Assembly (NCBI GenBank): GCA_020091685.1
Contig: CM034605.1
Coordinates: forward strand, 24,520,470 to 24,584,469
From: Lutjanus erythropterus
Taxonomy: Eukaryota; Chordata; Actinopteri; Lutjaniformes; Lutjanidae
Length of the DNA: 64,000 nt
Reading direction: 5' to 3'
Shown: piece by piece, positions 1 through 62,460 of the stretch
How the letters are laid out: each line of letters starts with the position of its first letter
How positions within the stretch are numbered: the first letter of the stretch is position 1
Position numbers and translations under genes: made by a program
The notes under the pieces: model-generated
Database searches by the model: none
What the model was told of the DNA's origin: nothing
Seen by the model: the letters and a program-made list of their open reading frames with translations, nothing else

Positions 1-726
1 TCTATGTATTTGAAAAAATGTATCCATGTATGTATGTATGTGAAAAAATGTATGTATGTATGTATGCATGTATGTATGTGAAAAATATTTATGTATGTAT
101 GTATGTAAAAAAAATGTATGTATATCAAAAAATTTATGTATATATGTATGTATGTATGAAAAAACAATATGTATGTATGTATGTGAAAAAGTATGTAAGT
201 ATGTATGTATGTATGTGAAAAATGTATGTGTATATGTATGTGAAAAAAAATGTATGTATGTATGTATGTATGTATGTCAAAATGCATGTATGCATGTATG
301 TATGTATCTATGTATGTATGTGAAAAAATGTATCAATGTATGTATTTGAAAAAATTTATCCATGTATAATATGTATGTGGAAAAAATGTATATATGTATG
401 TATGTGAAAAATGTATGTATGTATGTATGTGAAAAATGTATGTATCATGTATGTATGTATGTGAAAGATGTATGTATGTATGTGTGTGAAAAAATGTATC
501 TATGTATGTATTTGAAAAATGTATGTATGTATGCAATATGTATGTGAAAAAATGTTTATGTGTATGTATGTATGTATGTATGTATGTGAAAAATGTTTGT
601 ATGTATATCACTATGTCATATATGTATGTATATGGTAAAATATGTATATATGTAATGTATGTATATATATGTATGTATGTATGTATAAAAAGTATGTATG
701 TATGTATATGAAAAAGTAATATGTAA

Positions 727-757
<31 letters not shown>

Positions 758-1445
758 AATGTATGTGTATATGTATGTGAAAAAATGTATGTATGTATGT
801 ATGTATGTATGTATGTATGTATGTATGTATGTATGTATGTCAAAAATGTATGCTTATGTATGTATGTATGTATGTATGTATATGTATGTATGTATGTATG
901 TATGTGAAAAATGTATCTATGTATGTATTTGAAAAAATGTATCATGTATGTATGTATGTGAAAAATGTATATATGTTAATATAATGTATGTATGTATGTG
1001 AAAAATGTATGTATATATGTATGTATGTATGTATGTATGAGTAAAAAAAATGTATATATGTCAAATTTATCTATACATATGTTATGTATGTATGAATAAA
1101 TGTATGTATGTATGTATATAAAAAAAGTATGTATGTATGTATGTATGTATGTATGTATGTGAAAAATGTATGTGTATATGTATGTAGAAAAATGTATGTA
1201 TGTATGTATGTCTGTATGTATGTATGTGAAAGTATGTATGTATGTATGTATGTATGAAAAATGTATGTATGTATGTATGTGAAAAAATGTATCTATGTAT
1301 GTATTTGAGAAAAGATATATCCATGTATGTAACATGTGTAAAAATGTATGTATGTATGTTATGTATGTATGTATGTATATGCATGTAAAATGTATGTATG
1401 TATGTATGTATGTATGTATGTATGTATGTATGTGAAAAATGTATG

Positions 1446-1477
<32 letters not shown>

Positions 1478-1764
1478 AAAATGTATGTATATCAAAATGT
1501 ATGTATGTATGTATCCATGTATGTATGTATATAAGCAAAAAAATTATTATGTATGTCAAAAGTATGTATATATACTTATGTATTAGTAAAAACGTATGTA
1601 TGTATGTATGTATGTATGTGAAAAATGTATGTGTATATGTACTATGAAAAATGTGTATGTATGCTTGTATGTATGTATGTGAAAAATGTATGTATGTATG
1701 TGAAAAAATGTATGTATGTATGTATTTGAAAAATTTATCCATGTATGTATGCATGTAAAAAATG

Positions 1765-1798
<34 letters not shown>

Positions 1799-2239
1799 TG
1801 TGAAAAATGTATATATGTATGTATATGTATATATGTCAAAAATAGCAATGTATGCATGTATGTATGTATGTATGAAAAATGTATGTATGCATGTATGTAT
1901 GTATGTATGTGAAAAATGTATGTATGTATGTATGTATGTAAAAATGTATCTATGTATGTATTTGAAAAAATGTATCCATGTATGTATGTATGTAAAAAAA
2001 TGTAGGTATGTATGTATGCATGTATGTATGTATGAAAAATGTTTGTATGTATGTATGTCATGTATGTATGTATATAAGTATAAAAAATGTATATATGTCA
2101 AAAAATTTATGTATATATGTATGTATGTATGAAAAAAATATATTATGTATGTATGTATGAAAAAAGGAAGTATGTAAGTATGTATGTATGTATGTATGTA
2201 TGTAGAAAAATGTATGTGTATATGTATGTGAAAAAAATG

Positions 2240-2273
<34 letters not shown>

Positions 2274-2388
2274 TCAAATGTATGTATGCATGTATGTATG
2301 TATGTATGTATGTATGTATGTATGTGAAAAAATGTATCTATGTATGTATTTGAAAAAATGTATGTATGTATGTATGTATGTGGAAAAA

Positions 2389-2419
<31 letters not shown>

Positions 2420-2996
2420 AAATGTAATATATATGTATGCATGTATGTATGTATGTATGTGAAAAATGTATGTATGTATGTATGTATGTATGTGAAAAAT
2501 GTATGTATGTATGTATGTGAAAAATGTATCTATGTATGTATATGAAAAATGTATGTATGTATGTATGTATGTAAAAAATGTATGTATGTATGTATGTATG
2601 TTATGTATGTATACATGTAAAAATGTATGTATCATATGTATGTATGTATATATATATTATGTGAAAAAATGTATGTATGTATGTATGTATGTATATGTAT
2701 GTATGTATGTAAAAAAATGTATGTATATCATAAATATTTTGTATGTATGTATGCATGTATGTATGCATGTATGTAAAAAAATTTATGTATGTAAAAATAT
2801 GTATATATGTATATGTATTATGTAAAAAATGTATGTATGTATGTATGTATGTATGTGTAAAATGTATGTATAGTGTATGTATGTATGTATGTATGTATGT
2901 ATGTATGTATGTGAAAAATGTATGTATGTATGTGAAAAAATGTATTTATGTATGTATTTGAAAAGATTATCATGTATGTATGTGTGTGAAAAAATG

Positions 2997-3036
<40 letters not shown>

Positions 3037-3283
3037 AATGTATGTATGTATGTATGTATGTATGTATGTCAAAAATGTATGTATGCATGTATGTATGTAT
3101 GTGTAGAAAAATGTATGTATGCATGTATGTATGTATGTATGTAATATGAAAAATGTATGTATGTATGTATGTGAAAAAATGTATCTATGTATGTATTTGT
3201 AAAATGTATCCATGTATGTATGTATGTGAAAAAATGTGTATGTATGTATGTATGCATGTATGTATGTGAAAAATGTATGTATG

Positions 3284-3314
<31 letters not shown>

Positions 3315-4640
3315 GTAAAAATGTATATATGTCAAAAATTTATGTATATATGTATGTATGTATGTAAAAGGTATGTATGTATGTATGTATGTGAAAAAAG
3401 TATGTATGTATGTATGTATGTATGTATGTATGTAGAAAAATGTATGTGTGTATATGTATGTGAAAAATGTATGTATGTATGTATACTTGTATGTATGTAT
3501 GTATGTAATATGTATATAAAAATGTATGTATGCATGTGTATGTATGTATGTATGTATGTATGTATGTATGTATGTATGTATGTAGCAGAAAAATGTATGT
3601 ATGTATGTATTTGAAAAAATGTATCCATGTATGTATGTATGTGTAAAAAATGTATATATGTATGTATGCATGTATGTATGTATAAAAATATATGTATATA
3701 TGTATGCATGTATGTATGTATGTATGTAAAAAAAAATGTATATATATCAAAAATTTATCTATATATGTATGTATGTATGAAAAAATGTATGTATGTATGT
3801 ATGTGAAAAAATGTATGTATAGTATGTATGTATGTATGTAAAAAATGTATGTGTATATGTATGTGAAAAAGTAATATATGTATGTATGTATATGTATGTA
3901 TGTCAAAAATGTATGTATGCATATGTATGTATATAATAATATGTATGTATGTATGTAAAAAATGTATGTATGTATGTATTTGAAAAAATGTATGTATGTA
4001 TGTATGTATGTGGAAAAAATATGTATATATGTATGTAATGAAAAATGTATGTATGTATGTATATGAAAAATGTATGTATCATGTATGTATGTATGTAAAA
4101 ATGTATGTATGTATGTATGTATGTATGTGAAAAAATGTATGTATGTATGTATGTATGTATGTATGTGAAAAATGTATGTATGTATGTATACATGTATGTA
4201 TGTATGTATGTATATTAAATAAAAATGTATGTATGTCAAAATGTATCTATGTATGTATGTATGTATGTAAAAATGTATGTATGTATGTATGTATGAAAAA
4301 AGTATGTATGTATGTATGTATGTATATGTATGTATGTATGTAAGATAAATAAATGTATGTATGTATATGTATGTAAAAATGTATGTATACTATGTATGTA
4401 TGTATGTATGAAAAAATGTATGTATGTATGTATGTAAAAATGTATGTATGTATGTATGTGAAAAAATGTTATCTATGTATGTATTTGAAAAAAATGTATG
4501 TATGTATGTATGTATATGTGAAAATGTATGTATGTATGTATGTATGTATGTATGTATGTATGTATGTATGCATATGTAAAATGTATGTATGTATGTATGT
4601 ATGTATGTATGTATGTGAAAAATGTATGTAATATGTTATG

Positions 4641-4672
<32 letters not shown>

Positions 4673-4780
4673 AAAATAATATATATCAAAAATGTATGTA
4701 TGTATGTATGTATGTATGTATGCATGTAAATATGTATCTATGTAAAAAATGTATGTATATATGTATGTATGCAAGTAAAA

Positions 4781-4811
<31 letters not shown>

Positions 4812-6279
4812 ATGTATATAAATATGTATGTGTATGTATGTATGTATGAAAAATGTATGTGTATATGTATGTAAAAATGTATGTATGTATGTATGTATGT
4901 ATGTGAAAATATGTATGTATGTGAAAAAATGTATTTATATATGTATTATGTAAAATTTATCAATAACATATGTATGTATGTAAAAAAAGTATATATGTAT
5001 GTATGTATGTATGTGTATGTATGTATGTATGTAGAAAAATGTATGTATGTATGTATGTATGTATCAAAAATGTATGTAATACATGTATGTATGTATGTGA
5101 AAATGTATGTATGCATGTATGTATGTATGTATGTAGAAAAATGTATGTATGTGTATGTGAAAATATATGTATGTATGTATTTGTAAAAATGTATGCATGT
5201 ATGTATGTATGTGAAAAAATGTATATATGTATGTATGTATGTATGTATGTGAAAAATGTATGTATGTATGTATGTATGTATGTATGTATGTATATAAAAA
5301 AATGTATATATGTAAATGTATGTATATATATGTATGTATGTATAGAAAAAATGTATGTATGTATGTATAAAAAAGTGTATGTATGTATGTATGTATGTAC
5401 ATGTATGTATATGTAAAATGTATGTGTATATGTATGTGAAAAAATGTATGTATGTATGTATGTATGTATGTATCAAAAATGTATGTGTATGCATGTATGT
5501 ATATGTATGTATGTATGTATGTGAAAAGAAATGTATCTATGTATGTATTTGAAAAAATGTATCCATGTATGTATGTATGTGGAAAAATGTATGTATATGT
5601 ATATATGAAAAATGTATGTATGTATGTATGTATAAAAAATGTATGTATGCATGTATGTATATTATGTATAAAAATGTATGTATGTATGTATGTAAAAAAT
5701 GTATCTATGTATGTATTTGAAAAAATGTATGTATGTATGTATGTATGTATGTATGTGAAAAAATATATGTATGTATGTATGCATGTATGTATGTGAAAAA
5801 TGTTTGTATGTATGTATGCATGTAAATGTATGTATGTAAAAAAAATGTATATATGTCAAAAATTTATCTATATGTTATGTATGTATGTAAAAAACGTATG
5901 TATGTATGTATGTATGAAAAAATATGTATGTATGTATGTAATATGTATGTATGTAATATGTAAAATGTATGTATGTATGTGAAAAAGTATGTAAGTATGT
6001 ATGTATGTATGTATGTATGTAGAAAAATGTATGTATATATGTATGTGAAAAATGTATGTATGTATGTATGTATGTATGTGAATAATGTATGTATGTATGT
6101 GAAAAATGTATGTATGTATGTATGTGTAAAATGTATGTATGTATGTATGTTGTAAAAATGTATCCATGTATGTATGTATGTAAAAATGTATGTATGTATG
6201 TATGTATGTATGTATGTATGCATGTGTATAATGTATGTATGTATGTATGTATGTATGTATGTATGTAGAAAAATGTATG

Positions 6280-6311
<32 letters not shown>

Positions 6312-8145
6312 AATGTATGTATATCAAAAATGTATGTATGTATGTATGTATGTATGTATACATATGTAGTAAATAAGTTATGTATGTCAAAAATGTATCT
6401 ATATATGTATGTATTCAAAAATGTATGTATGTATGTGTATGTATGTGAAAAATGTATGTAAGTGTATGTATGTATGTATGTATGTATGTATGTAGAATAA
6501 TGTATGTGTATGTGTGTGTGAAAAATGTATGTATGTATGTATGTATGTATATGAAAAAATGTATGTATGTATGTGAAAAAAATGTATGTATGTATGTATT
6601 TGAAAAAATGCATGTATGTATGTATGCATGTGAAATAAATGTATATATGTATGTATGTATGTATGCATGTATGTATGTAAAATGTATGTATGTATATATA
6701 TATATGTATATATGTATGTATCTATGTATAATATAATATGTATGTATGTATGTATGTATGTAAAAAATGTTATGCATATGCATGTATGTATGTATGTATG
6801 TATGTAAAAAATGTATCTATGTATGTATTTGTAAAAATGTATCCATGTATGTAATATATGTGTAAAAATGTATGTATGTATGTATGCATGTATGTATGTA
6901 AAAATGTATGTATGTATGTATGCATGTATGTATGTATGTATGTAAAAAAATGTATATATATAAAATTTATATGTATATATGTATGTATGTATGTATATAT
7001 GTATGTATGTTATGTATGTAAAAATATGTATGTATAAGTATGTATGTATGTATGTATGTATGTAAGAAAAATGTATGTGTATATGTATGTGAAAAATGTA
7101 TGTATGTTGTGTGTATGTATGTATGTATGTATGTAGTAAATGTATGTATGTATGTATATAGAAAAATGTATGTATGTATGTATGTATGTGAAAAAATGTA
7201 TGTATGTATGTATTTGAAAAAATGTATGTATGTATGTATGTATGTAAGTAAAATGTATGTATGTATGTATGTATGTATGTATGTATGCATGTGAAAAATG
7301 TATATATGTTATGTATGTATGTATGTAAAATGTATGTATGTATGTATGTATGTATGTATGTATATGTAAAAAATGTATGTATATCAAAAATGTATGTATA
7401 TGTATGTATGTATGTATACATGTATGTAAAGATTATATGTATAATGTATGTATATATGTATGTATTAAGAAAAAATGTATGTATGTAGCATGTATGTAAA
7501 AATGTATGTAGTATGTATGCATGTATGTATGTATGTATGTATGTAAAAAATGTATGTAATATGTATTATGTGAAAAATGTATGTATACATGTATGTATGT
7601 ATATGAAAAATGTATGTATATGTGAAAAAATGTATTAACATATGTATGTATTTGAAAAAATGCAGCATGTAATATGCATGTAAAAAATGTATATATGTAA
7701 TATATGTATGTATGTATGTATGTATGTGAAAAATGTATGTATGTATATGCATGTATGTATGTATGTATATGTATGTATGTATGTATGTCAAAATGTATGT
7801 ATAGTGTATGTATGTATGTAAAAATGTATGTATGCACATGTATATATGTATGTATGTAATATGTATGTATGTATGTATATGTATTTGAAAAAATGTATGT
7901 ATGTATGTATGTATGTAAAAAAATGTATGTATGTATGTAGCATGTATGTATGTGAAAAAATGTATGTATGTATGTATGCATGTATGTATGTATATAAAGT
8001 ATGTAAAAATGTATATATATCAAAAATGTATCTATATGTATGTATATGTAAAAATGTATGTATGTATATGTGAAAAAGTATGTATGTATGTATGTATGTA
8101 TGTATATGTAGAAAAATGTATAATATATGTATGTAAAAATGTATG

Positions 8146-8177
<32 letters not shown>

Positions 8178-8805
8178 AATGTATGTATGTATGTATGTGA
8201 AAAAATGTATGTATGTATGTATGTATGTGAAAAAATGTATGTATGTATGTATGTGAAAAATGTATGCATGTATGTATGTATGTAAAAAATGTATGTATGC
8301 TATGTATGTATGTATGTAGCATATGTATGTGAAAAATGTATGTATGTATGTATGTATGTATGTATGTATGTATGTGAAAAATGTATGTATGTATGTATGT
8401 ATATATGTATGTAAAAAAAATGTATGTATATCAAAATGTATGTATGTATGTATGCATGTATGATACATGCATGTATATAAAAATTAATATCAAAGTATGT
8501 ATATGTGTATGTATTCAAGTATTATGTATGTATGTATGTATGTGTAAATTTATATAAGTATGTATGTATGTATGTATGTATGTATGTATGTGAAAAAATG
8601 TATGTATCATGTATGTATGTATGTCAAAAATGTATATATGTATGTATGTATGTTAAAATGTATGTATGTATATATTTGAAAAATGTATCCATGTGTATAT
8701 GTATGTAAAAATGTATGTATGTATGTAATGTATTATGTATGTATGTATGTATGCATGTATGTATGTGAAAAATGTATGTATGTATGTATGTATGTATATC
8801 AAAAA

Positions 8806-8836
<31 letters not shown>

Positions 8837-8974
8837 AATGTATGTATGTATGTATGTAGGTATGTATGTGTATGTATGTATCTATGTATGCTGTATTTGA
8901 AAAATGTATATATGTATGTATGTGAAAAAATGTATGTATGTATGTATGTATGCATGTATAATATGTATGTAAAA

Positions 8975-9005
<31 letters not shown>

Positions 9006-9248
9006 AATGTGTATGTATGTATGTAGAAAAAATGTATGTATGTATGTATTTGAAAAAATATATCCATGTATGTATGTATGTAAAAATGTATGTATGTATG
9101 TATGTATGTATGTATGTGTAAAATGTATGTATGTATGTATATATGTATGTATGTAGAATAATGTATGTATGTATGTATATGTATATGAAAAATGTATGTA
9201 TGTATGTATGTATGTGAAAAAATGTATGTATGTATGTATTTGTAAAAA

Positions 9249-9279
<31 letters not shown>

Positions 9280-9332
9280 AAATGTATGTATGTAAATGTA
9301 TGTATGTATGCATGTATGTATGTAGAAAAATG

Positions 9333-9364
<32 letters not shown>

Positions 9365-9490
9365 ATGTATGTATGTATGTATGTATGTATGTATGAAAAA
9401 TGTATGTATGTATGTATGTGAAAAAAGTATGTATCTATGTATGTATGTTGTAAAAATGTATCCATGTATGTATGTAACATGTGAAAAATG

Positions 9491-9522
<32 letters not shown>

Positions 9523-9600
9523 AATGTATATGTATGTATATATGTATGTATGTATGTAAAATGTATGTATGTATGTATGTATGTAAAAAAATATAATATG

Positions 9601-9634
<34 letters not shown>

Positions 9635-10244
9635 TAAAATGTATGTATGTATGTGAAAAAATGTATCTATGTATGTATTTGAAAAAATGTATCCATGTAT
9701 GTATGTATGTGAAAAAATGTATGTATGTATGTATGTATGTATGCATGTATGTATGTATGTAAAATGTATGTATGTATGTATGTATGTATGTATGTCAAAA
9801 ATGTATGTATGCATGTATGTATGTATGTAAAAATGTATGTATGTATGTATGTGAAAAAATGTATCTATGTATGTATTTGAAAAATGTATGTATGTATGTA
9901 TGTATGTGAAAAAATGTATGTATGTATGTATGTATGTATGTGAATGTATGTATGTATGTATATATGTATATGTGAAAAATGTATGTATGTATGTATGTAT
10001 GTAAAATGTATGTATATCAAAAATGTATGTATATGTATGTATGTATGTAAAAAAATGTATGTATGTATGTATGTGAAAAAATGTATCTATGTATGTATTT
10101 GAAAAAATGTATCCATGTATGTATGTATGTATGTGAAAAAATGTATGTATGTATGTATTTGGTAAAATGTATGTATGTATGTATGTATGTGAAAAAATGT
10201 ATGTATGTATGTGTATGTATATGTATATATGTGAAAAATGTATG

Positions 10245-10275
<31 letters not shown>

Positions 10276-10298
10276 GAAAAATGTATGTAAAATGTATG

Positions 10299-10330
<32 letters not shown>

Positions 10331-10469
10331 AATGTATATAAAATGTATGTATGTATGTATGTATGTGTATGTATGTATATAAGTAAAAAAAATGTATATC
10401 AAAAATGTATGTATATATGTATGTATTCAAAAAGTATGTATGTATGTATGTATGTATGTATGAAAAGTG

Positions 10470-10502
<33 letters not shown>

Positions 10503-10803
10503 GAAAAATGTATATGTGTATATGTATGTAAAAAAATGTATGTATGTATGTATGTATGTATGTGAAAAATGTATGTATGCATGTATGTATGTATGTAAAA
10601 ATGTATATATGTATGTATGTATGTATGTGAAAAATGTATGCATGTATGTATGTATGTGAAAAATGTATGTATGTATGTATGTATGTTAAAAATGTATGTA
10701 TGTATATATTTGAAAAAATGTATGTATGTATGTATGTATGTGAAAAAATGTATGTATGTATGTATGTATGTATGTATGTATGCATGTATGTATATGTAAA
10801 ATG

Positions 10804-10837
<34 letters not shown>

Positions 10838-11375
10838 TGTATGTATGCATGTATATATGTAAAAATGTATGTATGTATGTATATGTAGGTATGTATGTAA
10901 AAATGTATGTATATGTATTTGAAAAAATGTATCCATGTATGTATATGTGTAAAAAAAATGTATGTATGTATGTATGTATGCATATGTATGTATGTATAAA
11001 AATGTATGTATGTATGTATGTATGTATGTGTAAAATGTATGTATGTATGTATGTGAAAAAATGTATGTATGTATGTATTTGAAAAAATATATCCATGTAT
11101 GTATGTATGTAAAAAATGTATGTATGTATGTATGCATGTATGTATGTGAGAAAAATATGTATGTATGTATGTATATATATATGTATGTGAAAAATGTATG
11201 TATGCATGTATGTATGTATGTGAAAAATGTATGCTTATGTATGTATGTATGTATGTGAAAAAATGTATGTATGTATGTATTTGAAAAAATGTATCCATGT
11301 ATGTATGTATGTGAAAAAATGTATGTATGTAATATATGTATGTATGTATGTATGTATGTAAAAATGTATGTATGT

Positions 11376-11407
<32 letters not shown>

Positions 11408-11609
11408 AATGTATGTATGCATGTATGTATGTATGTGAAGAAATGTATGTATGTATGTATGTGAAAAAATGTATCTATGTATGTATTTGAAAAAATGTAT
11501 CCATGTATGTATGTATGTGAAAAAATGTATGTATGTATGTATGCATGTATGTATGTGAAAAATGTATGTATGTATGTATATATGTATGTATGTGAAAAAT
11601 GTATGTATG

Positions 11610-11641
<32 letters not shown>

Positions 11642-11896
11642 AAAATGTATGTACATCAAAAATGTTTGTATGTATGTATGCATGTAAAAAATTTACGTAT
11701 GTATGTAAGTATATGTATGTAAAGAAATGTATTATGTATGTATGTATGTGAAAAATGTATGTATGTATGTATGTGAAAAATGTATGTATGTATGTATGCC
11801 AAAAATGTATGTATGTATGTATGTATGTATGTTTGTATGTATGTATATGGAAAATGTCTGTATGTATGTATGTCAAAAATGTACGTATGTATGCAA
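1..11896 (+). repeat. Giant composite (ATGT)n satellite-like array
   Basis: Almost every base belongs to runs of ATGT (about 3-12 units) separated by A-rich spacers such as GAAAAA, CAAAAA or TAAAAA. The A-rich strand of the spacers is always the + strand, so the whole array has one orientation. Rarer phrases recur, such as TTTGAAAAAATGTATCCATG and a TGTCAAAAATTTATCTATAT-like phrase, which points to a higher-order repeat rather than a simple microsatellite. All forward frames of ATGT runs are stop-free and encode Met-Tyr-Val-Cys; the reverse encodes Thr-Tyr-Ile-His. The long open frames here are therefore artefacts. The array continues past the left edge. The right edge is a short TGCAAAATTA sequence. 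No gene is present. Confidence 0.97.
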
Positions 11897-11919
11897 AATT
11901 ACATATAAAAGAAAAAAGT

Positions 11920-12737
11920 GCTGCACTCACCAATTTTGTGTACTTGTGTTCCATTTCAATCTAGTTTTTTACATCTACTTGACCACAGTTCAGGGGGAAA
12001 CTTATTTTTTACTCCACTGGATTAATTTAACAGCTATAATTACCAGTTACATTCCAGATTAAGTTTTTGTATGTGAAACATAATGACAATCTTATAAAAT
12101 ATGATACACTTTTATAGATTAAATTAATAAACAGTATGTTCTCAAAAGTATCAATACTTGGTTGCTTTTTTGATGCCACAATTCGATCTCCATTTATTAT
12201 ACTTTTGATAGTAATGAAAGTACCAAAACCTTTTTTTTATTTAATTCAAAGTTCTAAATGGCCGTTCAAGACCTCAGTTCAGTTCGGTCTTTATTGTCCT
12301 GCCTGAAATTTGGCTTGCAGCATAGCAAGTCAGATTTTTCTGCACAAGCATTGTGTGCAAGGTGTTAATTTAAAGAAGAAGAAAAAATCTCCCTATTTTG
12401 TCTGCCAAGAACCTTTTTTCTTTTCACTGTGGTATCAAGATAGAAGAGAGTATAATTTTGTATACTAGTATTGTGTTTTAGTTTAAAACTTTGGTATTGT
12501 GTAACTTTACAACAGTATATAGAATAGTTAAAGCAGTAGTTGCACATTAATGCATCAGTAATAATAATTCAATAGTAAACTAATATATATTTGTACAACA
12601 CTGACAACGCCTTTTACTCTTGTTACTTTTACTGAAGTGACATTTTCAGTGTTAGACTTTCATTGTAATGGAGTATCTTTATATTGGAAGGTTGCTACCT
12701 TTACATAAGTAAAGATCTGAATACTTTTCCACCACAG
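11920..12737 (+). mobile_element. hAT-like non-autonomous element, copy A (5' end missing)
   Basis: The sequence matches, from memory, a very common teleost hAT-type non-autonomous element. Visible parts are a 'TACTTGTGTTCCATTT...CTACAGTTCAGGGGGAAA' start region, an 'AATGCATCAGTAATAAT' middle, and an end with 'AAGTAAAGATCTGAATACTT' followed by TCCACCAC, the complement of the family's terminal GTGGTGGAA. The left terminal repeat is absent; the element starts directly at the border of the ATGT array. It has no coding capacity. Confidence 0.6.
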
Positions 12738-14538
12738 ATCATATTGCATTAATGTCCAGCCCGACATAAAAGCATTAAACAGACTCATAAAACTGGTCCC
12801 ACACTGTAGTCGTCCTACGAACTCTCAACTTCTGGCTCCCACGTCCTCTTGCTCTCCGTGCTCTCTCTTTCTGCATCTTTTCCCTTTCAGATGAATTGTG
12901 TGGCCCATTGAGAGCGGGTTAAAAAAGAAGGTGGAGAGACCAAAGAGGGTGAGCGAGGGAAGCCGAGTGTTGAGTGCAGGTGTCCAGCTTCAGAAAGTGG
13001 GCTTTTTAAGAGCTGAAAAGGGCCATCCGGTCACCCTTTGCTGGAATGGGTAACCCCCCCCCCTCCCCAAATCCCCTTCTCTCAGTCTTTGTCCCTATAG
13101 ATATTTTTTAATTGTTGGCTATGACAGTTCAGCGGCTTTTTGAGTGCCTCAGTGAAGAGCCTTGTAATTAGAGCTATTGAGCTGCTGGAATTGGCACAAT
13201 TAGGGTCAGCATTAATGATTTCTGTGTGCACCGGGTGGTTTCAGTAAAAGGGCTACGTTCTCAGAATGGATGGAGAGAATTTACAAAGAGGGTCAGGCCA
13301 AATGAAAAAGGAAGGGGCAGTTGGACATAAAGGGAGTAAAACTGAGGCCTAAATGAACTGGAGCCTGTGCATTATCTGGGTTCTTGTTTGTTGGACCACC
13401 GTAGACTCAGCAAAGTGTCCATGTGGTATCATTATCAGAGCTGTGAGAGGTGGGATGCGCCTCAGGGGCATCATCTTCTCCCTTCTCTCTGCTCTGTGCC
13501 AGCCGGTCCACTCAAGCCCTGGTGTGAGTAGAGACATGTTTGTGGGAGGTGAGGATGAGGAGCAGAGAGGGGGAACAGGAGTGTCTCTTGGAATGTTAAC
13601 GAGATCAGTTTATATCTGCTCTTCCCTCTCGCTTCGACCCTCCACCCCTAACAAAGAAGACAGAGTTTTCTGGGGTGTAAAGCTGTTGTAGGGAAAGCAT
13701 GGCTCGACACTTTAATTCTGTTGTCATTTGGCCGAGCATGAAAGAAAACCTCCGACAACAAAAACAAAAAAGGAATGAATGGGCATGCTGAAAGGAAATG
13801 TATTTCCCAATTACTGCAGCGGCCCTTCCAAAGACGCCCCGGCCGCTGTCCCCCCGCCGGCTTACACCAACCACATACGGCCGAAAATTAGCAGGTGTCT
13901 GTAGACACAGAAACAGACGGAGCAGCACAGAGGCCACCCAGAGATCTGACGGCCGGGGGGCGAGGTGGATTTAGCACAGATGTTCAACCATGATGTCACA
14001 TGTCCAAAGAGTACAATTTAGACACACACACAGAGTTCAGATGTGGTATGCTGAATGTTGTGGGTAAAAAGAAGTAAGAATGGAAACACAATTTAGTTAG
14101 CTGTCCCATTAATTTTAGTTATTCCCAGTATAACACAAAAAGAACCACAATTCTTTCAAAATAAAAGCAGCCTTAAGAAGTTGCACATTTTCCAGTGTTT
14201 TAGTAGCTTCTCATTGTTTGCGCATTTTAATAGTTTCTATCAATTCTACAAAACCTTATGATCTTTTTTAATATAAGTCTACTGAACTTTGTAAACAGAG
14301 GAAACCAGGTGTTCTGCAGAAGTGGTATTTCTATTTTGTGTGTATTTACATAATTATGCAGTACATTTTGTTTTAGAGGGAAATGTACTTTGTACTTTAT
14401 GTTATATCTACAGTATTTAAAGTTGGTTCCACTTTGACCAGCTACAACATAAAAATTCTGCATACATGAAATATAACAATAAAACGTTCTGAAAAGGAGT
14501 GACTTTTCATTACTTTAAGGATATTTTGCCAATAACAC
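12738..14538. other. Intergenic DNA, no gene recognised
   Basis: Ordinary complex sequence. I see no recognisable exon, RNA gene or complete transposon. A higher-complexity stretch at 13,085-13,235 is listed separately as a possible conserved element. A C-run near 13,052-13,067 and GC-rich DNA at 13,815-13,865 are the only compositional features. Confidence 0.5.
13085..13235. promoter_or_regulatory. Possible conserved non-coding element
   Basis: Non-repetitive, balanced-composition sequence with several homeodomain-type cores: TAATTAG near 13,166, CAATTAGGG near 13,197 and a TTAATGATTT near 13,212. It lies in a gene-free region. The style resembles fish developmental enhancers. This is inference only; no cross-species alignment was possible. 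Confidence 0.22.
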
Positions 14539-14901
14539 AACCCCAGTTCCAAAAAAGTTGGGATGCTGTGTAAGATGTAAATAAAAACAGAATGCAATGA
14601 TTTGCAAGTCCATTTTGACATACAGATTATTCAATTGAATACAGTACAAAGACAACTGATTAACTTTATTGTACACATTCTAAAAAAGATGGGATGGGAG
14701 CATGTTTACCACCGTGTTACATCACCATTAGCAGGGATGTCTCTGAAAAAGACATTATCTGTATGGCAGCATATGTTGCTTCAAAACCTGTATGTACCAC
14801 TTACCTATTATGCAATGGGCACTAAAACATCCCCATAATTTTCACACATCCTGGCTTTTGAACTTTGCATTGGTAACAATCTGGACGGTCCGTTTTGTCG
14901 T
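14539..14901 (-). mobile_element. Tc1-like element fragment, copy 1
   Basis: It begins with the family's terminal repeat (ACCCCAGTTCCAAAAAAGTT, then GGGATGCTGTG). The sub-terminal region 'ATAAAAACAGAATGCAATGA' follows, then internal sequence including 'GGCAGCATATGTTGCTTC' and 'CTGGCTTTTGAACTTTGC'. These match a widespread fish Tc1-like transposon read antisense to its transposase. The internal part is a deletion derivative: the 'GTTACATCACCATTAGCAGG' junction joins regions that are far apart in the full-length element as I remember it. The fragment stops abruptly at 14,901, where the ATGT array begins. Confidence 0.7.
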
Positions 14902-15000
14902 CTGTATGTATGTATGTATGTATATATGTATGTCAAAAATGTATGAATGTATGTATGTATGCATGTCAAAAATGTACGTATGTATGTATGTCAAAAATAT
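14902..15000 (+). repeat. Short (ATGT)n array inside Tc1-like remnant
   Basis: ATGT runs with CAAAAA spacers, in the same orientation as the large array. On the left it abuts the Tc1-like sequence; on the right it is interrupted by the 15,001-15,574 block and resumes after it. Confidence 0.9.
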
Positions 15001-15574
15001 TTTAATCAGGAGAGACCAAGAGTAAAAGAAAATGGTTTATTGGCACATGCATGAGATATGAAACATGAAATGTCTTTGGCGGTTAGACCTTATTGAGGTG
15101 AAACAATATGCACATATATAAATGGGGGTGATGAAGCTGTAGTGAAGAGAACCCCCCAGGGTCTAGACACTGGTGGTGGTGGTGGTGAGGTGCAAAGCAG
15201 AGACAGATGAGGTGCAGTGGCTCCAGACTCCTGCTGCCTGGACCTGAAGACTGGAGGAGAGGGCATCGGGGAGGATTGGGGTGAACATCTTCTGCTACCT
15301 GGGTCCAATGACTGGAGGAGAGAGGGGTGGAGGAGGGTCACGCGACTGACTGAATGACAACTGAAGGAGCAAAGACAGAGGCGATTTAAAGTTTGGCAGC
15401 AGCAAATTGACTGGCTATCGCGACCGTGGCAAAATCTGATTGGATAGTAAAGACGAAGGTTAACGCCCACAACAGCTGATTAGAGGGAACAAGAAGAGAG
15501 AGACGAGTAAAGGAAAGTTATGAATGAAGGCAGCGTAATAGAAGGTCTTCCTGATTGAACTTACGCTGAGCTTC
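15001..15574 (-). mobile_element. Insertion splitting the ATGT array, possibly a solo LTR
   Basis: A 574-bp block of complex sequence flanked on both sides by the same tandem array. Read on the minus strand it has a promoter-like CTTTAAATCG around 15,385-15,395, a C/T-rich middle, and an AATAAA (plus-strand TTTATT at 15,036-15,041) about 35 bases before its right-hand end. That order, promoter then polyadenylation signal, is expected of a solo LTR. No canonical TG...CA ends were confirmed, and no protein domain is recognised in a 126-codon minus-strand open frame (15,090-15,470). It could instead be a different interspersed repeat. Confidence 0.4.
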
Positions 15575-16872
15575 ATATGTATGTATGTATGTGTCACAAA
15601 TGAATGTATGTATGTATGTATGTATGCATGTCAAAAATGTATGTCTGTATGTGAAAAATATATGTATCTATGTATGTATGTCAAAAATGTATGTATATAT
15701 TTATGTATGTATGTATGTATGTATGTCAAAAATGTATGTATGTATCTATGTATGTATGTGAAAAATGTATGTATGTATGTGTGTGAAAAATGTATGTATG
15801 TATGTAAAAAAATGTATGTATGCATGTATGTATGTATGTGAAAAATGTAATTATGTATGTATGTATGTATGTATGTGAAAAATGTATGTATGCATGTATG
15901 TATGTATGTATGTATGTGAAAAATGTATGTGTATATATGTATGTGTGAAAAATATGTATGTATATGAAAAATGTTTGTATGTATGTATGTATGTGAAAAA
16001 TGTATGTATGTATGTATGTATGTCAAAAATATGTATGTATGTCATAAATGTATGTATGTATGTATGTATGTCAAAAATGTATGTATGTGAAAAATGTATG
16101 TATGTATCTATGTATGTATGTGAAAAATGTATGTATGTATGTGAAAAATGTATGTATATATGTATGTATGTGAAAAATGTATGTATGTATGTCAAAAATG
16201 TATGTTTGTCTATGTATGTGAAAAATGTATGTATGTATGTATTTATGTATGTGAAAAATGTATGTATGTATGTATGTGAAAAATTTATCTATTTATGTAT
16301 GTATGTATGTGAAAAATGTATGTATGTATGTATGTATGTATGTATGTATGTATGTGAAAAATGTATGTGTATATATGTATGTGTGAAAAATATGTATATA
16401 TATGAAAAATGTTTGTATGTATGTATGTATGTGAAAAATGTATGTATGTATGTATGTATGTCAAAAATATGTATGTATGTCATAAATGTATGTATGTATG
16501 TATGTATGTCAAAAATGTATGTATGTGAAAAATGTATGTATGTATCTATGTATGTATGTGAAAAATGTATGTATGTATGTCAAAAATGTATGTATATATG
16601 TATGTATGTGAAAAATGTATGTATGTATGTCAAAAATGTATGTTTGTCTATGTATGTGAAAAATGTATGTATGTATGTATGTATGTGAAAAATGTATGTA
16701 TGTATGTATGTATGTGAAAAATGTATCTATTTATGTATGTATTATGTGAAAAATGTATGTATGTATGTATGTGAAAAATGCATCTATGTATATATGTATG
16801 TGTGAAAAATATGTATGTATATGAAAAATGTTTGTATGTATGTATGTATGTCAAAAAATGTATGTATGTATG

Positions 16873-16904
<32 letters not shown>

Positions 16905-16934
16905 AAATGTATGTATGTGAAAAATGTATGTATG
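15575..16934 (+). repeat. Second (ATGT)n array with 438-bp higher-order unit
   Basis: Same unit and spacers as the large array, mostly GAAAAA/CAAAAA. A complex phrase (GAAAAATGTATGTGTATATA ...) at 15,918 recurs at 16,356, exactly 438 bases later, with the intervening spacer order largely preserved. A partial third copy of the neighbouring phrase (GTGTGAAAAATATGTATGTA) is at 16,800 after 15,943 and 16,381. The right edge is again a TGCAAAATTA-type sequence, as at the end of the large array. Confidence 0.95.
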
Positions 16935-17148
16935 CAAAATTATACATAAAATAATCAAATGCATGATGTATACAACAAACTTTGTTATGTATCATATGAG
17001 ACAGAACTCTTCAGTTTGGTAAAACACTAAGCACTCTAATAACCAGTTTTGTTCATTTTTGACAATCATTTTCAGTGATAGATTTTTAACAATGTAATCA
17101 TATCATATCACAGTAAAATCTACCAAAAGTCAGTTTATGATTATATTT
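16935..17148. other. Array right flank, no gene
   Basis: AT-rich flank starting TGCAAAATTATACATAAAAT, similar to the flank after 11,890. No further feature seen. Confidence 0.4.
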
Positions 17149-17278
17149 AGTGGTGGAATGCAACTAAATACATTTACTCAAGTACTGTACTCACAAATTT
17201 TGTATACTTGTGCTCCATTTTATTCTGTTTTTTTTACCTCTACTTCACTACAGTTCAGGGGGAAACGTATTTTTTACT

Positions 17279-18149
17279 CAGCTGATTAACTTTATTATAC
17301 ACATTCTGAAAAAGCTGGGATGGGAGCATGTTTACCACCATGTTACATCACCATTAGCAGGGATGTCTCTGAAAAAGACATTATCTGTATGGCAGCACAT
17401 GTTGCTTCAAAACCTGTATGTACCAGTTACCCATTATGCCATTGGCACTAACACACCCCCATACTATCACACATTCTGGCTTTTGAACTTTGCATTGGTA
17501 ACAATCTGGACGGTCCGTTTTCTCTTTAGCCTGGAGGGCACAACATCCATGCTTACCAAAAAAAAAAAAAAACGTTTTCCACTTTGCATCACTCCATCTA
17601 GAAGAGAAGCTGGTGGCCTGTCTGGATGTTGCTGCAATGAAATGTGTTGACCAAGAAATATCTTTTATAGAATATTAGTTTTCGGCCTTGCCCCTTATGT
17701 GCACAGATTTCTCTGAATTCTCTAAATCTTTTAATGATATTATGGATTGTAGAAGGTAAAATCCCTAAATTCCTTGCAGTTGTGCATTGAGAAACATTGT
17801 TCTTAAATTGTTGGGAGTATTTGCAGAAACAGTTTTTCACAAGGCAATGAACCTCTCCCCATCCTTGCTTGTGAATAACTGAGGATGGAGGAAGAGGATG
17901 CGCCCTTAATCATGCATCTATCACCTGTTACCACTTAACCTGTTTACCAATTGAATGTTCCAGACAGGTTTTATTGAGCATTTCACAACTTTCCCAGTCT
18001 TTTATTGCTCCCGTCCCAATTTTTTTAAAATGTGTTGAACATCTTGCGTTTATACTATACTCAGTTGAATATAGGTCGAAAAGAATCATTGCATTCTGTT
18101 TTTATTTACATTTTACTCAGCGTCCCAACTATTTTGGAATTGGGTTTGG
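17279..18149 (-). mobile_element. Tc1-like element, copy 2 (5' truncated, with right terminal repeat)
   Basis: Bases 17,281-17,522 nearly duplicate 14,655-14,900 (about 15 differences by eye), including the same internal deletion junction. The element continues further through 'TTTTCGGCCTTGCCCC' and 'AATGATATTATGGATTGTAG', and closes at 18,121-18,149 with CGTCCCAACTATTTTGGAAT plus TGGGTTT, the inverse of the copy 1 terminal repeat. The other terminal repeat is missing. Confidence 0.72.
17690..17830 (-). pseudogene. Tc1-like transposase N-terminal (HTH) fossil
   Basis: On the minus strand this reads QQFKNNVSQCTTARNLGI, then PSTIHNIIKRFREF and a GQGRK motif. This is the helix-turn-helix DNA-binding domain typical of Tc1 transposases (family knowledge). 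The frame sits in an 80-codon open stretch (17,598-17,840), but the catalytic DDE region is absent because of the internal deletion, so it cannot encode an active enzyme. Minor changes from the expected motif (FREF for FRES) fit neutral decay. Confidence 0.7.
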
Positions 18150-28130: not shown

Positions 28131-28845
28131 ATACAACCGATCCACGGGATGAAACTGCAGCAAATATTGTAAATGTTGTCTTTGTATCTCAACAGCAGAC
28201 GCATCTCTTGTGAAATCTGTCTTTAAAGCTGCACCAGAGGTCGTTTTTAGTCTGAACGAGCAGATATTTTCAGTCCTGCTGGCACGTAAAAGTCGAGGCC
28301 TTCACTATTAGTAAGGTGTGAGTCCATGATGGTGAGCAGAGAGCTTGATAGATGAGCCCAGCGCTTGTTTACCAGCTACAGTCTCATTCAAGTGATTTGA
28401 AACGTGCTTTTACTATGAATTTATAAATAATATATGTTGCAGGGCCTGTTTCAAAAGTCTTTGTAGGTTGATTGTGTGATATAGAGTGAAAAATATTGCT
28501 ATGAGTAATCAAATTCTCTCAGCCTAGTAACTCTGCCAAAAATAGACTCTCTATTAAAGGACCTTGGTGTTTTTTCGAGTGTTATGTCACTTCCCTGAAG
28601 GGGAAATGTCTCATCTGGAGTTAAAATCTGTGCATGAATATGTGTTCATGCATGCATGCGTCTCTGACCCTCCCCCACAGACTGCTGCATCTCTCTTAAG
28701 CTCTGAACTGAATGCTGTAATCCTCTAATTGAAACCTCTTCTCACTGTTTTATCCACTTCCCCTCATGTATCATATGACACCCCCCTCTCCCTCCATTGA
28801 TCCCCGCCCCCTTCCCATCTTCTCCACCTTTAGTATTTGCCAACT

Positions 28846-31395
28846 ATGGTCGACCCCTCGGAGGCTGAGGAGCAGAATAAGTGTAAAGGCCCGCAGCTCG
28901 ACACGCCAGCAGTGGCCGCTGAAGACCCTCGACTGCCCAAACAGGTCGATGGCACGACAACAGAGGAAGATGGGGATGCCGGGTTTGAGACGCCGCCCAC
29001 TGGAAGTTCTGAGCCGAGCCCTAGCCACGCCCCGGCGGGGCCAGAGGCCGCTTCTCAAGAGGCCTCACCTCAGCAACCACAGACTCAGACTGCCACCGAT
29101 ACGCCACCCAAACTGCACCTGGACCTGTACAACTTTGACTCACCAGCCGCTGAGGGAAGCCGCTACGTGCTAACAAGCCCCCACTCCCTGGAGGCCTGTG
29201 CTCGATGTGGGGTCAAACCTGTGGAGCTCCTTCCACGCCCGCTGGCTGACTTCGCCCGGGAGGCTCCCGGACGCTCCATGCGTGTTGCGACAGGCCTGTT
29301 CGAGGTCTATGAGAGGGACCGGCACGCCAAACTGAGGCAGTGCAGGGAGGAGAGAGAGAGGATTATCAGAGAGGAGAAAAGAAGGATTCTGCAGGCGACA
29401 GTGAACAGCAGCAGTGCGACATCCACCTCTGTGGAGCAGCAGCACAAAGCCTCCTCTGGCTCCACTCCGCCTCCCAAATCTGGGCCGGTGACCTCCAGCT
29501 CTGCCCCTGACTTTAAAGCGTCCCCTAGAGCCACAGCATCAGGTCCAGCCTCAAAAACAGCTCTTTTATCTAAAGCCCCCACCACCAGTCTTAGCACCTC
29601 TCCTAAATCTGCCCCTATAGGATCTACTCAGTCCTCAAAAACTGGTTCTACACCTTCAACGCCATCCTCCAAGGGCGGTTTCCAAGGATCTGCCAAGCAT
29701 CCTTTGTCCTCATCATCTGAACAAGTAAAAACGCCACGTCCGCTCTCGTCTGGCCCCCCACCGGTAGTCAGGAAGTCCTCAGGTGGTAAATCCTCAAACA
29801 CTTTCCCTAGATCAACACCAAAACCTCCGTCCTTCCCCAGAGCCAACTCCACCTTAACATCATCAGTGTCCAAACCTGCAGCTCAGAGTTCTGGGATGCC
29901 TCTGAATGGCGTCACAGGAGGACCGTTCTCTCAGCACAATGGACATCTTGGATTTCACTCCAGGGTGCGAGGAAAAAGCCATTCGCTGGAGTCCTTACAA
30001 CGGAGGATGGATCCTGTCTGCTCTTCCACCTCCACCACCACAACTACAACCACATGCACTTCATCAGAATCGGGTGCATCCTCCTCTTACAGCTGGGACG
30101 GCGCCAGAGACCACTGGGCGAAAGTTTCCAGTCCGCGAGCTCGCACTATGGCCACGTTCAACTCCCTGATGGGCCGCAGCCTCAGCCTGGGTGACCTGAG
30201 TCACTCCCCTCAGACCACGCAGAAGGTGGAGCGCATAGTGAAGGAGGTGAAGCGTCGAGGCCTGAAGGCTGTCTCAGAGCGTGATCGCAAGATCGCAGCT
30301 CTGATGCTGGCCAGATATCAGGAGGAAGACATCATGAGTCAGACCCGCTACGTGGCGCACCTCCAGTGGGACAGTGAACGCAGGATGGAGGAGCTCCGAC
30401 GGGAGCAGGAGGATAGGGAGAAGCAGCGTGCGGTGCTTCAGTGCCAGCGGGTGTGGCAGACGCAGGTGTCAATACGTCAGCGAAGACTCAGCCAGCAGGA
30501 GAGACAGTCAGCTGCAGCCAAAATGCGACAGGCTGAGGAGAATGAGGAGCGATGGCGGGAGCTCGCCGAGCAGCAGGAGCGTAACCGTCTGCTGAGGTTA
30601 CAGCAGGCGGCGCGAGAGGAGAAGCATAAGAAAGCTCTTCAGGAGCAGAACCTGAAGGCGCTGGAGGAGGAGAGGGCGGCCATGCTGGAGCAGGAGAGGC
30701 TGCTGCTGAAGGAGAAGCTCACCATGGCCGAGCTGAAGAGGCAGGAGAGGGAGCACCAGGCGCAGGAGGACCGACGAGGTCTGAACAAAGCTGAGAAGAG
30801 GCGCCACGCCGCCCTGATCCAGGAGATCGCCCGCAGGGAGCAGGAGGAGCGGGAGGAGGCCAGGAGGGTGGCGGAGGAGAAGCTGAGCCGCTCCCTGGAG
30901 AATTACGAACAGATCGTGGAGCGTCGAGGACAGGAGCTGAAAGAGAAGGCCAAGCGTGAGGAGAAGCAGATCCAGAAGGCACGCAAAGCGGCAGAAAGGC
31001 GTGAGAGGCAGCAGCAGCAGCTGCTGGAAGCTCGCGTGAAGGAGGCGGAGAAACGAGCACAGCAGGCGGCTCTAGTGGCCGAGGAGAAGGCGAGAGAGAA
31101 GGCTCAGCGTGCCGTCCAGAGCCGGCAGGAGAAGGAGAGACTCCAGAGGCTCAACAGGCAGCGGGTGGAGGAGGAGGAGAAGCAGCGGCGTCTGGAGCTG
31201 CTGCAGTCCATCGAGAGGAAGCTGGAGAAGAGCGAGCAGATCTTCAAGGAGAAGAGGGCGGTGTTGGAGAGCGCTCGCTCCGTGGCCCGAGCCTCATTTC
31301 ACGTACGAGACAAAGTGAGGGAGGAGACCAACATGCGTACGTTTGATAAAATGGCCCTGGAAGCTCAACTCAAAGCCAGCCTGGATGAGAAATAA
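28846..31395 (+). CDS. ccdc177: Coiled-coil domain-containing protein 177, single coding exon
   Basis: Uninterrupted 849-residue protein. Start chosen at ATG 28,846 (CAACTATGG context); the frame opens slightly earlier but without an ATG, and a splice acceptor ends at 28,833. Residues 1-88 are acidic and Pro/Thr-rich. Residues 89-180 form the most conserved-looking block (LHLDLYNF, SRYVLTSPHSLEACARCGVK, SMRVATGLFEVYERDR), recalled as shared with mammalian CCDC177. Residues 185-415 are a low-complexity Ser/Thr/Pro linker. Residues 430-450 carry FNSLMGRSLSLGDLSHSP. From about 490 to 835 there is a continuous Glu/Arg/Lys/Gln-rich helix (coiled coil or single alpha-helix). No membrane segment or enzyme motif. 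The molecular function of CCDC177 is not established to my knowledge. The protein appears longer than the human one (about 700 aa, from memory). Neighbouring PLEKHD1 and SLC39A9 support the assignment. Confidence 0.9.
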   Translation: MVDPSEAEEQNKCKGPQLDTPAVAAEDPRLPKQVDGTTTEEDGDAGFETPPTGSSEPSPSHAPAGPEAASQEASPQQPQTQTATDTPPKLHLDLYNFDSPAAEGSRYVLTSPHSLEACARCGVKPVELLPRPLADFAREAPGRSMRVATGLFEVYERDRHAKLRQCREERERIIREEKRRILQATVNSSSATSTSVEQQHKASSGSTPPPKSGPVTSSSAPDFKASPRATASGPASKTALLSKAPTTSLSTSPKSAPIGSTQSSKTGSTPSTPSSKGGFQGSAKHPLSSSSEQVKTPRPLSSGPPPVVRKSSGGKSSNTFPRSTPKPPSFPRANSTLTSSVSKPAAQSSGMPLNGVTGGPFSQHNGHLGFHSRVRGKSHSLESLQRRMDPVCSSTSTTTTTTTCTSSESGASSSYSWDGARDHWAKVSSPRARTMATFNSLMGRSLSLGDLSHSPQTTQKVERIVKEVKRRGLKAVSERDRKIAALMLARYQEEDIMSQTRYVAHLQWDSERRMEELRREQEDREKQRAVLQCQRVWQTQVSIRQRRLSQQERQSAAAKMRQAEENEERWRELAEQQERNRLLRLQQAAREEKHKKALQEQNLKALEEERAAMLEQERLLLKEKLTMAELKRQEREHQAQEDRRGLNKAEKRRHAALIQEIARREQEEREEARRVAEEKLSRSLENYEQIVERRGQELKEKAKREEKQIQKARKAAERRERQQQQLLEARVKEAEKRAQQAALVAEEKAREKAQRAVQSRQEKERLQRLNRQRVEEEEKQRRLELLQSIERKLEKSEQIFKEKRAVLESARSVARASFHVRDKVREETNMRTFDKMALEAQLKASLDEK

Positions 31396-61700: not shown

Positions 61701-61779
61701 CTGCAGAGACAGAGGTCAGGAGAGGACAGGAAGAGGCAGATGGACTGTTAAAAACACCAGAGCACATTTGATTCAAGGA

Positions 61780-62460
61780 ATCAAGGTCATTTATTATCAT
61801 TGCACAACAAAGGGTTGTACAATGAAATTAGAATTGCAGTTCCTTCATGCTACACACAAAATAGAACTGAAAATTAATTCAATTTATAATGGAATAAGTT
61901 TATAATACAAAACAAATGAAAAAATACAATATGTAAGCCTACAAGTATTTACATATATACCCATATGTATACACGCAGGAAATAATCCTGTGGTGTATTT
62001 TTGCATCAGGTTGCATGTAAGCAGCAGCAACAAGATGGTGATAATAATAATATGGTCAATATCTTCACACTAAAAGTTCAATAGCTGGGAAAACACTGTT
62101 CATCATTCCTGAAACTGCCTGGAACAGAAACCATCATAAACCCGTGTAATATTCTTCTGAGATGTAAGTATGTAAATGAACACAAAACAAATCTCTCTGT
62201 TTGACAAAGTTTGTTACGCAAGAAAAAAAAACACGTCAGCTGGTTGTATTTTACCGCATGCTGAACTTTGCTCTGTTTGAAAAGGATTCAAACTGTTACA
62301 GTCCACACAGGCAAATATACAGTATACAAATATCAGAAATTATATGTCTATATGCTCTACACTTTAGTTATCTTTTGGTGTCTTTCTGGCCGGAGGCACT
62401 CCTGAAGGCATCTGCAGCTCTGACAAAGAGCCAAAGACAATAAAGAATTTGGTGGGGCGT
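61780..62460. repeat. LINE/SINE-type relic in SLC39A9 intron
   Basis: Begins near TCATTTATTATCATTGCACA, ACAAAGGGTTGTACAATGAA, a phrase common at the 3' side of fish non-LTR repeats from memory. The body is AT-rich and non-coding. Exact ends uncertain. Confidence 0.4.

Follow-up and report, generated by a model that had tools for sequence, protein, structure and literature searches.

A Satellite-Like ATGT Array in Lutjanus erythropterus That Probably Grew in Place, With a Spacer Private to Its Locus Among Three Giant Loci Read

Introduction

How a repeat of four bases can come to fill almost twelve kilobases in a single orientation, and whether the outcome is better described as a microsatellite or as a satellite, is the question raised by the left end of the stretch analyzed here (64,000 nucleotides of Lutjanus erythropterus, called the window throughout). 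The window corresponds to C15:24520470-24584469, on a contig of 37,883,876 bases within a genome of 937,629,617 bases and 444 contigs. How complex satellites arise from simple repeats is, as a rule, read from arrays that are old, very large, and homogenised. Medium-sized arrays that share one core and carry differing spacers in one genome would make the steps of the process comparable side by side.

Results and Discussion

Extent, Composition, and Polarity of the Main Array

Tandem Repeats Finder (TRF) covers positions 18-11893 of the window with a period of 4, the consensus ATGT, and 2946.8 copies (68% matches, 9% indels), which bears out the proposal of a first-pass annotation that an ATGT array of roughly 12 kb with A-rich spacers lies here (Table 1). 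As an ATGT repeat, the main array is real and plainly not a product of chance. Positions 1-11896 hold 4950 T, 4300 A, 2428 G, and 218 C, and GC skew stays between 0.67 and 0.88 in every one of the first twelve 1-kb bins of the window. The spacers had been described as having a single strand polarity, and this is what the counts give: 333 runs of at least four A stand against a single T-run, and 309 occurrences of (ATGT)3+ against none of (ACAT)3+. The A-runs recur once per ~36 bp, and cutting the array at them yields 333 phrases with a mean length of 30.3 bp and a commonest length of 20 bp (48/333).

With a period of 4 and the unit ATGT, the array is a microsatellite in the sense of a tandem repeat of a few bases, and it belongs to the same core-unit class as ordinary tetranucleotide microsatellites, from which it differs in its kilobase size, its regular spacers, and the order of its phrases. 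It is also a kilobase-scale, head-to-tail array in a single orientation, with 11.9 kb in the window and a further 4.15 kb beyond a run of N at the left border. Its description as a single oriented, satellite-like array therefore holds, given the one polarity, the non-random phrase order, and the like array to the left of the N run.

Table 1. Features located in the window (positions counted from its first nucleotide).
Positions	Strand	Feature	Basis or measure
1..11896	+	Main ATGT array with A-rich spacers GAAAAA, CAAAAA, TAAAAA	TRF, phrase and polarity counts
9233..9672	+	Example of a long unit, 439 bp, between two TATGTATTTG anchors	Anchor intervals
11862..11921	+	Right edge of main array, TATGTATGCAAAATTA onward, alike at right edge of second array	Local alignment with 16907 onwards
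11916..12028	+	Interspersed-repeat fragment just past main array	84% identical to 17180-17292
14538..14602	.	Left inverted arm of DNA-transposon-like element around second array (right arm 18084-18148)	65 nt, 91% complementary
14653..14899	+	Element piece left of second array, found again on its right at 17279-17524	247 bp, 93%
14903..14991	+	Second array, left piece	TRF
15004..15556	.	Stretch splitting second array; ends AATCAGGA / TCCTGATT are inverted copies	8 bases, perhaps chance
15576..16934	+	Second array, main piece, 438-bp higher-order unit	TRF; 3 copies, 88%
17180..17292	+	Second copy of the 11916-12028 fragment	
28834-31395		Single reading frame of 853 aa, DUF4659, ~17 kb right of main array	E 9.9e-103

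Phrase Order and Longer Units

The satellite-like organization claimed for the main array stands in part, in that the order of its phrases is non-random but a clean long unit was not found in it. The order was followed with anchor motifs that were chosen after inspection of the sequence, which counts against the explanation that we favor below, and the number of anchors depends on their definition (31 when defined as TATGTATTTG, 29 when an A must follow, and 34 when phrases containing TATTTG are counted). Of the 31 TATGTATTTG anchors, 16 have TATCCATG within the next 20 bp, compared with a random mean of 1.9 and a maximum of 7 in 2000 draws. Similarly, phrases with TATTTG are followed by TATCCATG-class phrases 19 times where 2.5 are expected (maximum of 9 in 5000 shuffles). 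A third phrase type stands 60-180 bp before the first type in 9 of 12 cases against 3.4 expected, a value that the draws also reached. Other phrase pairs gave mixed results: one is found 5 times with 0.7 expected, though shuffles also reached 5, another 8 times with 1.1 expected at lag 3 but 0 times at lags 4 and 5, and two further pairs tested are within chance. Recurring phrase pairs number 6 against 1.1 expected, which equals the maximum over 1000 shuffles, and none of the 59 lags in a phrase-lag test stands out (best z of 3.6, at lag 56).

Identical informative phrases lie no nearer to one another than chance would place them, with 4 of 120 pairs less than 250 bp apart (4.6 expected) and 11 pairs less than 1000 bp apart (18.7 expected), and phrase triples do not recur in the main array. 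Thus, by phrase-identity distances and phrase triples, recent local duplication is not seen in the main array. The longest exact repeat measures 97 bp (offset 1808), compared with a mean of 72 and a maximum of 87 in phrase-order shuffles (n = 100).

Of the 30 intervals between anchors, most belong to one of two length classes, at 336-439 bp (n = 11) or at 160-239 bp (n = 12); the remaining seven (60, 505, 608, 696, 760, 883, and 1165) fit neither length class and were left out when the units were compared with one another. With the anchors removed, the units of the two classes have likenesses of 0.775 against a control of 0.747 (sd 0.006, maximum 0.759; 40 draws) and of 0.710 against 0.677 (sd 0.006, maximum 0.687; 40 draws), where the match is a rough one in that controls begin at phrase starts and units 45 bases past the anchor. 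The regularity of anchor spacing is weak, the observed value being reached in 0.033, 0.126, and 0.047 of random draws for three anchors. Long units of ~0.2 and ~0.4 kb in the main array are weak and decayed, and we read the array as an old, decayed higher-order structure. Several base-level approaches were set aside. Self-alignment was swamped by the simple repeat and gave no usable unit, lag counts past the short lags were best near 1234 and 2825 with a clear unit absent, and TRF with periods up to 2000 returned only periods 4 and 53-57 for the whole main array. A local TRF row at 302-571 has a period of 83.

A Second Array in the Window

A second ATGT array, omitted from the first-pass annotation, lies in the same orientation to the right of the main one in two pieces and has a 438-bp unit (Table 1). 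Its three copies at 88%, together with an exact repeat of 182 bp at offset 438, make it fresher than the main array. The longest string common to both arrays is 67 bp, and 100 phrase shuffles gave a mean of 61 and a maximum of 80; as this is within chance, a common origin of the two arrays rests on edge and spacer. The right edges are alike over ~30 bases from TATGTATGCAAAATTA, and the same interspersed fragment, which we take to be hAT/Tol2-like, lies 3' of both at different distances. Two overlapping pieces of an element whose ends are long and inverted flank the second array (14538-18148; overlap of 247 bp, 93%). This pattern of edges and fragments can be explained by local duplication with later deletions, the rival being carriage by a mobile element.

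The Cluster on the Contig

Directly left of the window is a run of exactly 5,000 N (24515470-24520469), taken to be an assembly gap although withheld sequence would look no different, and beyond it an array of like kind extends from 24511318 to 24515469 (4,152 bases). The suggestion that the array leaves the window still repeating is thus right insofar as the array resumes further left, though not directly, since the 5,000 N intervene. The piece adjoining the N run has the GAAAA spacer and 0 TATGTATTTG anchors, compared with 31 in the main array. Smaller pieces lie further left, at ~24510281 (tens of bases) and at 24508573-24509144, and the array pieces on both sides of the main array are all in one orientation. 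Interspersed elements separate the pieces of the cluster; left of the main array there is a LINE-like insert carrying a direct repeat of 13 bases, the copies of which begin at a distance of 363 bp, and a further one of these elements is a piece that from its look we presume to be Tc1-like. The main block is nominally 21,045 bp long including the 5,000 N, and the whole cluster ~28.8 kb; owing to the N run the true length of the block is uncertain, at ~12 to 21 kb.

ATGT Arrays Elsewhere in the Genome

Across the genome, matches to (ATGT)5 number 10,998 in forward and 6,685 in reverse orientation; a reversed-pattern control is uninformative here, being the same repeat in another phase. The C15 cluster accounts for 519 matches (401 in the window plus 82 and 36 in two stretches leftward). 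Among the matches listed, the first 100 places are all on contig C1, up to 13.42 Mb. A short ordinary microsatellite at 4.89 Mb contributes 4 of them and a giant array 71, and the ends of a second giant array contribute 17 and 8. The comparison that follows covers three giant loci only, of which two are on C1, chosen in listing order and not by survey.

The first giant C1 array (10398129-10421376) is a TATG array of 23.2 kb that is free of N and in which exact repeats reach 81 bp at most; it is longer than the array in the window, and its spacers are TTTG, TTTGG, and GAATG. The second (~13405930-13423200) has a TATG core, GGTCAT spacers at both ends, and 14,903 N in the middle, and its true length may be ~17 kb. 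The spacer words separate the loci clearly. GAAAA reaches 26.2, 18.5, 15.0, and 23.5 per kb in four C15 pieces, as against 0.2, 0, and 0 in three C1 pieces (5 in the 23,248 bp of the first C1 array and 0 in 2,295 bp of the second). Conversely, TGTTTG reaches 22.2 per kb in the C1 array at 10.40 Mb and at most 3.7 in the other six pieces, TGAATG 9.9 per kb in that same array and at most 1.9 elsewhere, and GGTCAT 33.2 and 33.9 per kb at the two ends of the array at 13.41-13.42 Mb, the other five pieces having no more than a single count apiece. The ATGT core is multi-locus, but each of the three loci read has a private spacer, which is the strongest result of this analysis. A satellite family, understood as a single sequence shared among many sites, is not supported by these three loci: the ATGT core is present at many sites, but the GAAAAA spacer is nearly absent from the two other giant loci. 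Among open-library titles under the words tried, none dealt with an ATGT satellite whose spacers are private. The exact array pattern had 0 matches among contigs of viruses, bacteria, and archaea, which has little bearing given their content.

Origin of the Array

We consider it probable, at about 0.7, that an ordinary ATGT microsatellite grew in place into a satellite-like array that was later cut up by transposons. Observed are an oriented array parted by A-runs, a non-random order of its phrases, pieces in the same orientation on both sides, and two arrays with other spacers; from these we infer the steps of growth, the change of the spacer into the locus's own word, and the later decay and breakage. 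The start would have been an ATGT microsatellite beside a short A-run, and the ancestor at C15, judged from that one locus, may have had the form TTTCAAAAATG(TATG)nCAAAATTA. This could have grown first by 4-base slippage and next by tandem duplication of longer pieces that took the spacer along (~30 bp, later ~200 and ~400 bp), whereby the spacer found at each locus would have become a repeat word peculiar to that locus. Decay, transposon insertions, and local duplication would afterwards have broken the array. The spacer words at the two outer edges of the C15 cluster (TTTCAAAAATGTATG on the left, in the leftmost piece, and GTATGTATGCAAAATTA on the right) have CAAAA beside the core on both sides, which fits the proposed ancestor, and the different spacers of the other giant ATGT arrays suggest that each block grew on its own, in place. 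The array is most likely without host function.

The edges are where another origin has to be weighed, namely that a hAT- or MITE-like mobile element brought the array here as its own internal tandem repeat. A shared right edge followed by the same fragment at two places in the window could also be compatible with such carriage, and to that extent counts against growth in place; the second array, moreover, has on either side a piece of an element that bears long inverted ends, and PMC12628747 describes such routes for other satellite DNAs. However, a common left edge was not seen in these arrays: the second array begins inside the inverted-repeat element and the leftmost C15 piece in other sequence. 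The two copies of the fragment are 5.3 kb apart in the same orientation, so that local duplication suffices as well, and the other two giant arrays have different edges and spacers. Satellites formed inside transposons (MITE, Helitron), as PMC12628747 describes them, are comparable in that the array here lies beside and among transposon pieces with a like edge on one side only, whereas ends of one element were not found on both sides of the main array and the spacer varies among the three loci read. We regard carriage by a mobile element as unlikely.

That the length is an artefact of assembly, a short array having been expanded, is very unlikely, because long exact repeats are absent from the main array; duplications of that kind would be long and nearly exact, and neither the 97-bp maximum in 11.9 kb nor the 81-bp maximum in the 23.2-kb C1 array free of N has this character. 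What speaks for an artefact are the exactly 5,000 N that border the window within the array and the 14,903 N inside the C1 array at 13.4 Mb, which indicate that such arrays are hard to assemble. In the first assembly of the tandem-repeat-rich cod genome, gaps were likewise largely tied to tandem repeats (PMC5241972). With N runs in two of the three giant arrays, the true sizes of these arrays are probably misjudged in the assembly. Also very unlikely is a role as a regulatory or chromatin element for neighboring genes. Its one point of support is a position ~17 kb left of the DUF4659 reading frame, which we take to be CCDC177-like; the array itself is irregular and decayed, and DNA folding of one 139-base stretch gave, for either strand, a stability no greater than that of shuffles.

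Returning to growth in place, it is possible, although we would put it at rather less than even, that giant ATGT-core arrays form a whole class in this genome, each having its own private spacer, built on a core prone to runaway growth in this lineage and exchanging no sequence between arrays. If true, each array would be an independent replicate of the change from microsatellite to satellite, and from several such arrays one could tell whether it is the core motif, and not the site, on which growth depends. The mechanism is ordinary, and the private spacers are the interesting part; new would be a set of arrays on one core, kilobases and not megabases in size, each with its own spacer.

Likeness to Human Satellites 2 and 3

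By analogy, the array is best read as resembling a small human satellite 2/3. According to PMC4022460, these satellites derive from an ancestral CATTC unit that has diverged, so that both systems have a diverged, very short ancestral unit (CATTC there, ATGT here) overlaid by longer units, weak ones in the main array here, and different arrays have different subfamilies, matched here by three spacer types at three loci. The unit here being ATGT and not CATTC, this is a likeness only and not a matter of descent. Human satellites 2 and 3 form megabase arrays that typically lie beside centromeres (PMC4022460), whereas the arrays described here are nominally ~12-23 kb, some of them with N. Unlike their human counterparts, the ATGT arrays lie within large contigs, and the window's array has a gene nearby.

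Other Features of the Window

The CCDC177-like reading frame and transposons that seem to resemble fish elements both point to a teleost. Rfam at the gathering score and a tRNA search each gave 0 matches in the window. A sushi-domain motif scan intended to place a neighboring gene gave two hits, neither of them convincing. On the minus strand at 61396-61827 there is a reading frame of 143 aa, for which Pfam found no family and which looks like a portion of an SLC39A9-type zinc transporter. In a self-comparison, a cluster of diverged direct repeats, 66-90% alike, was observed at 54135-55058.
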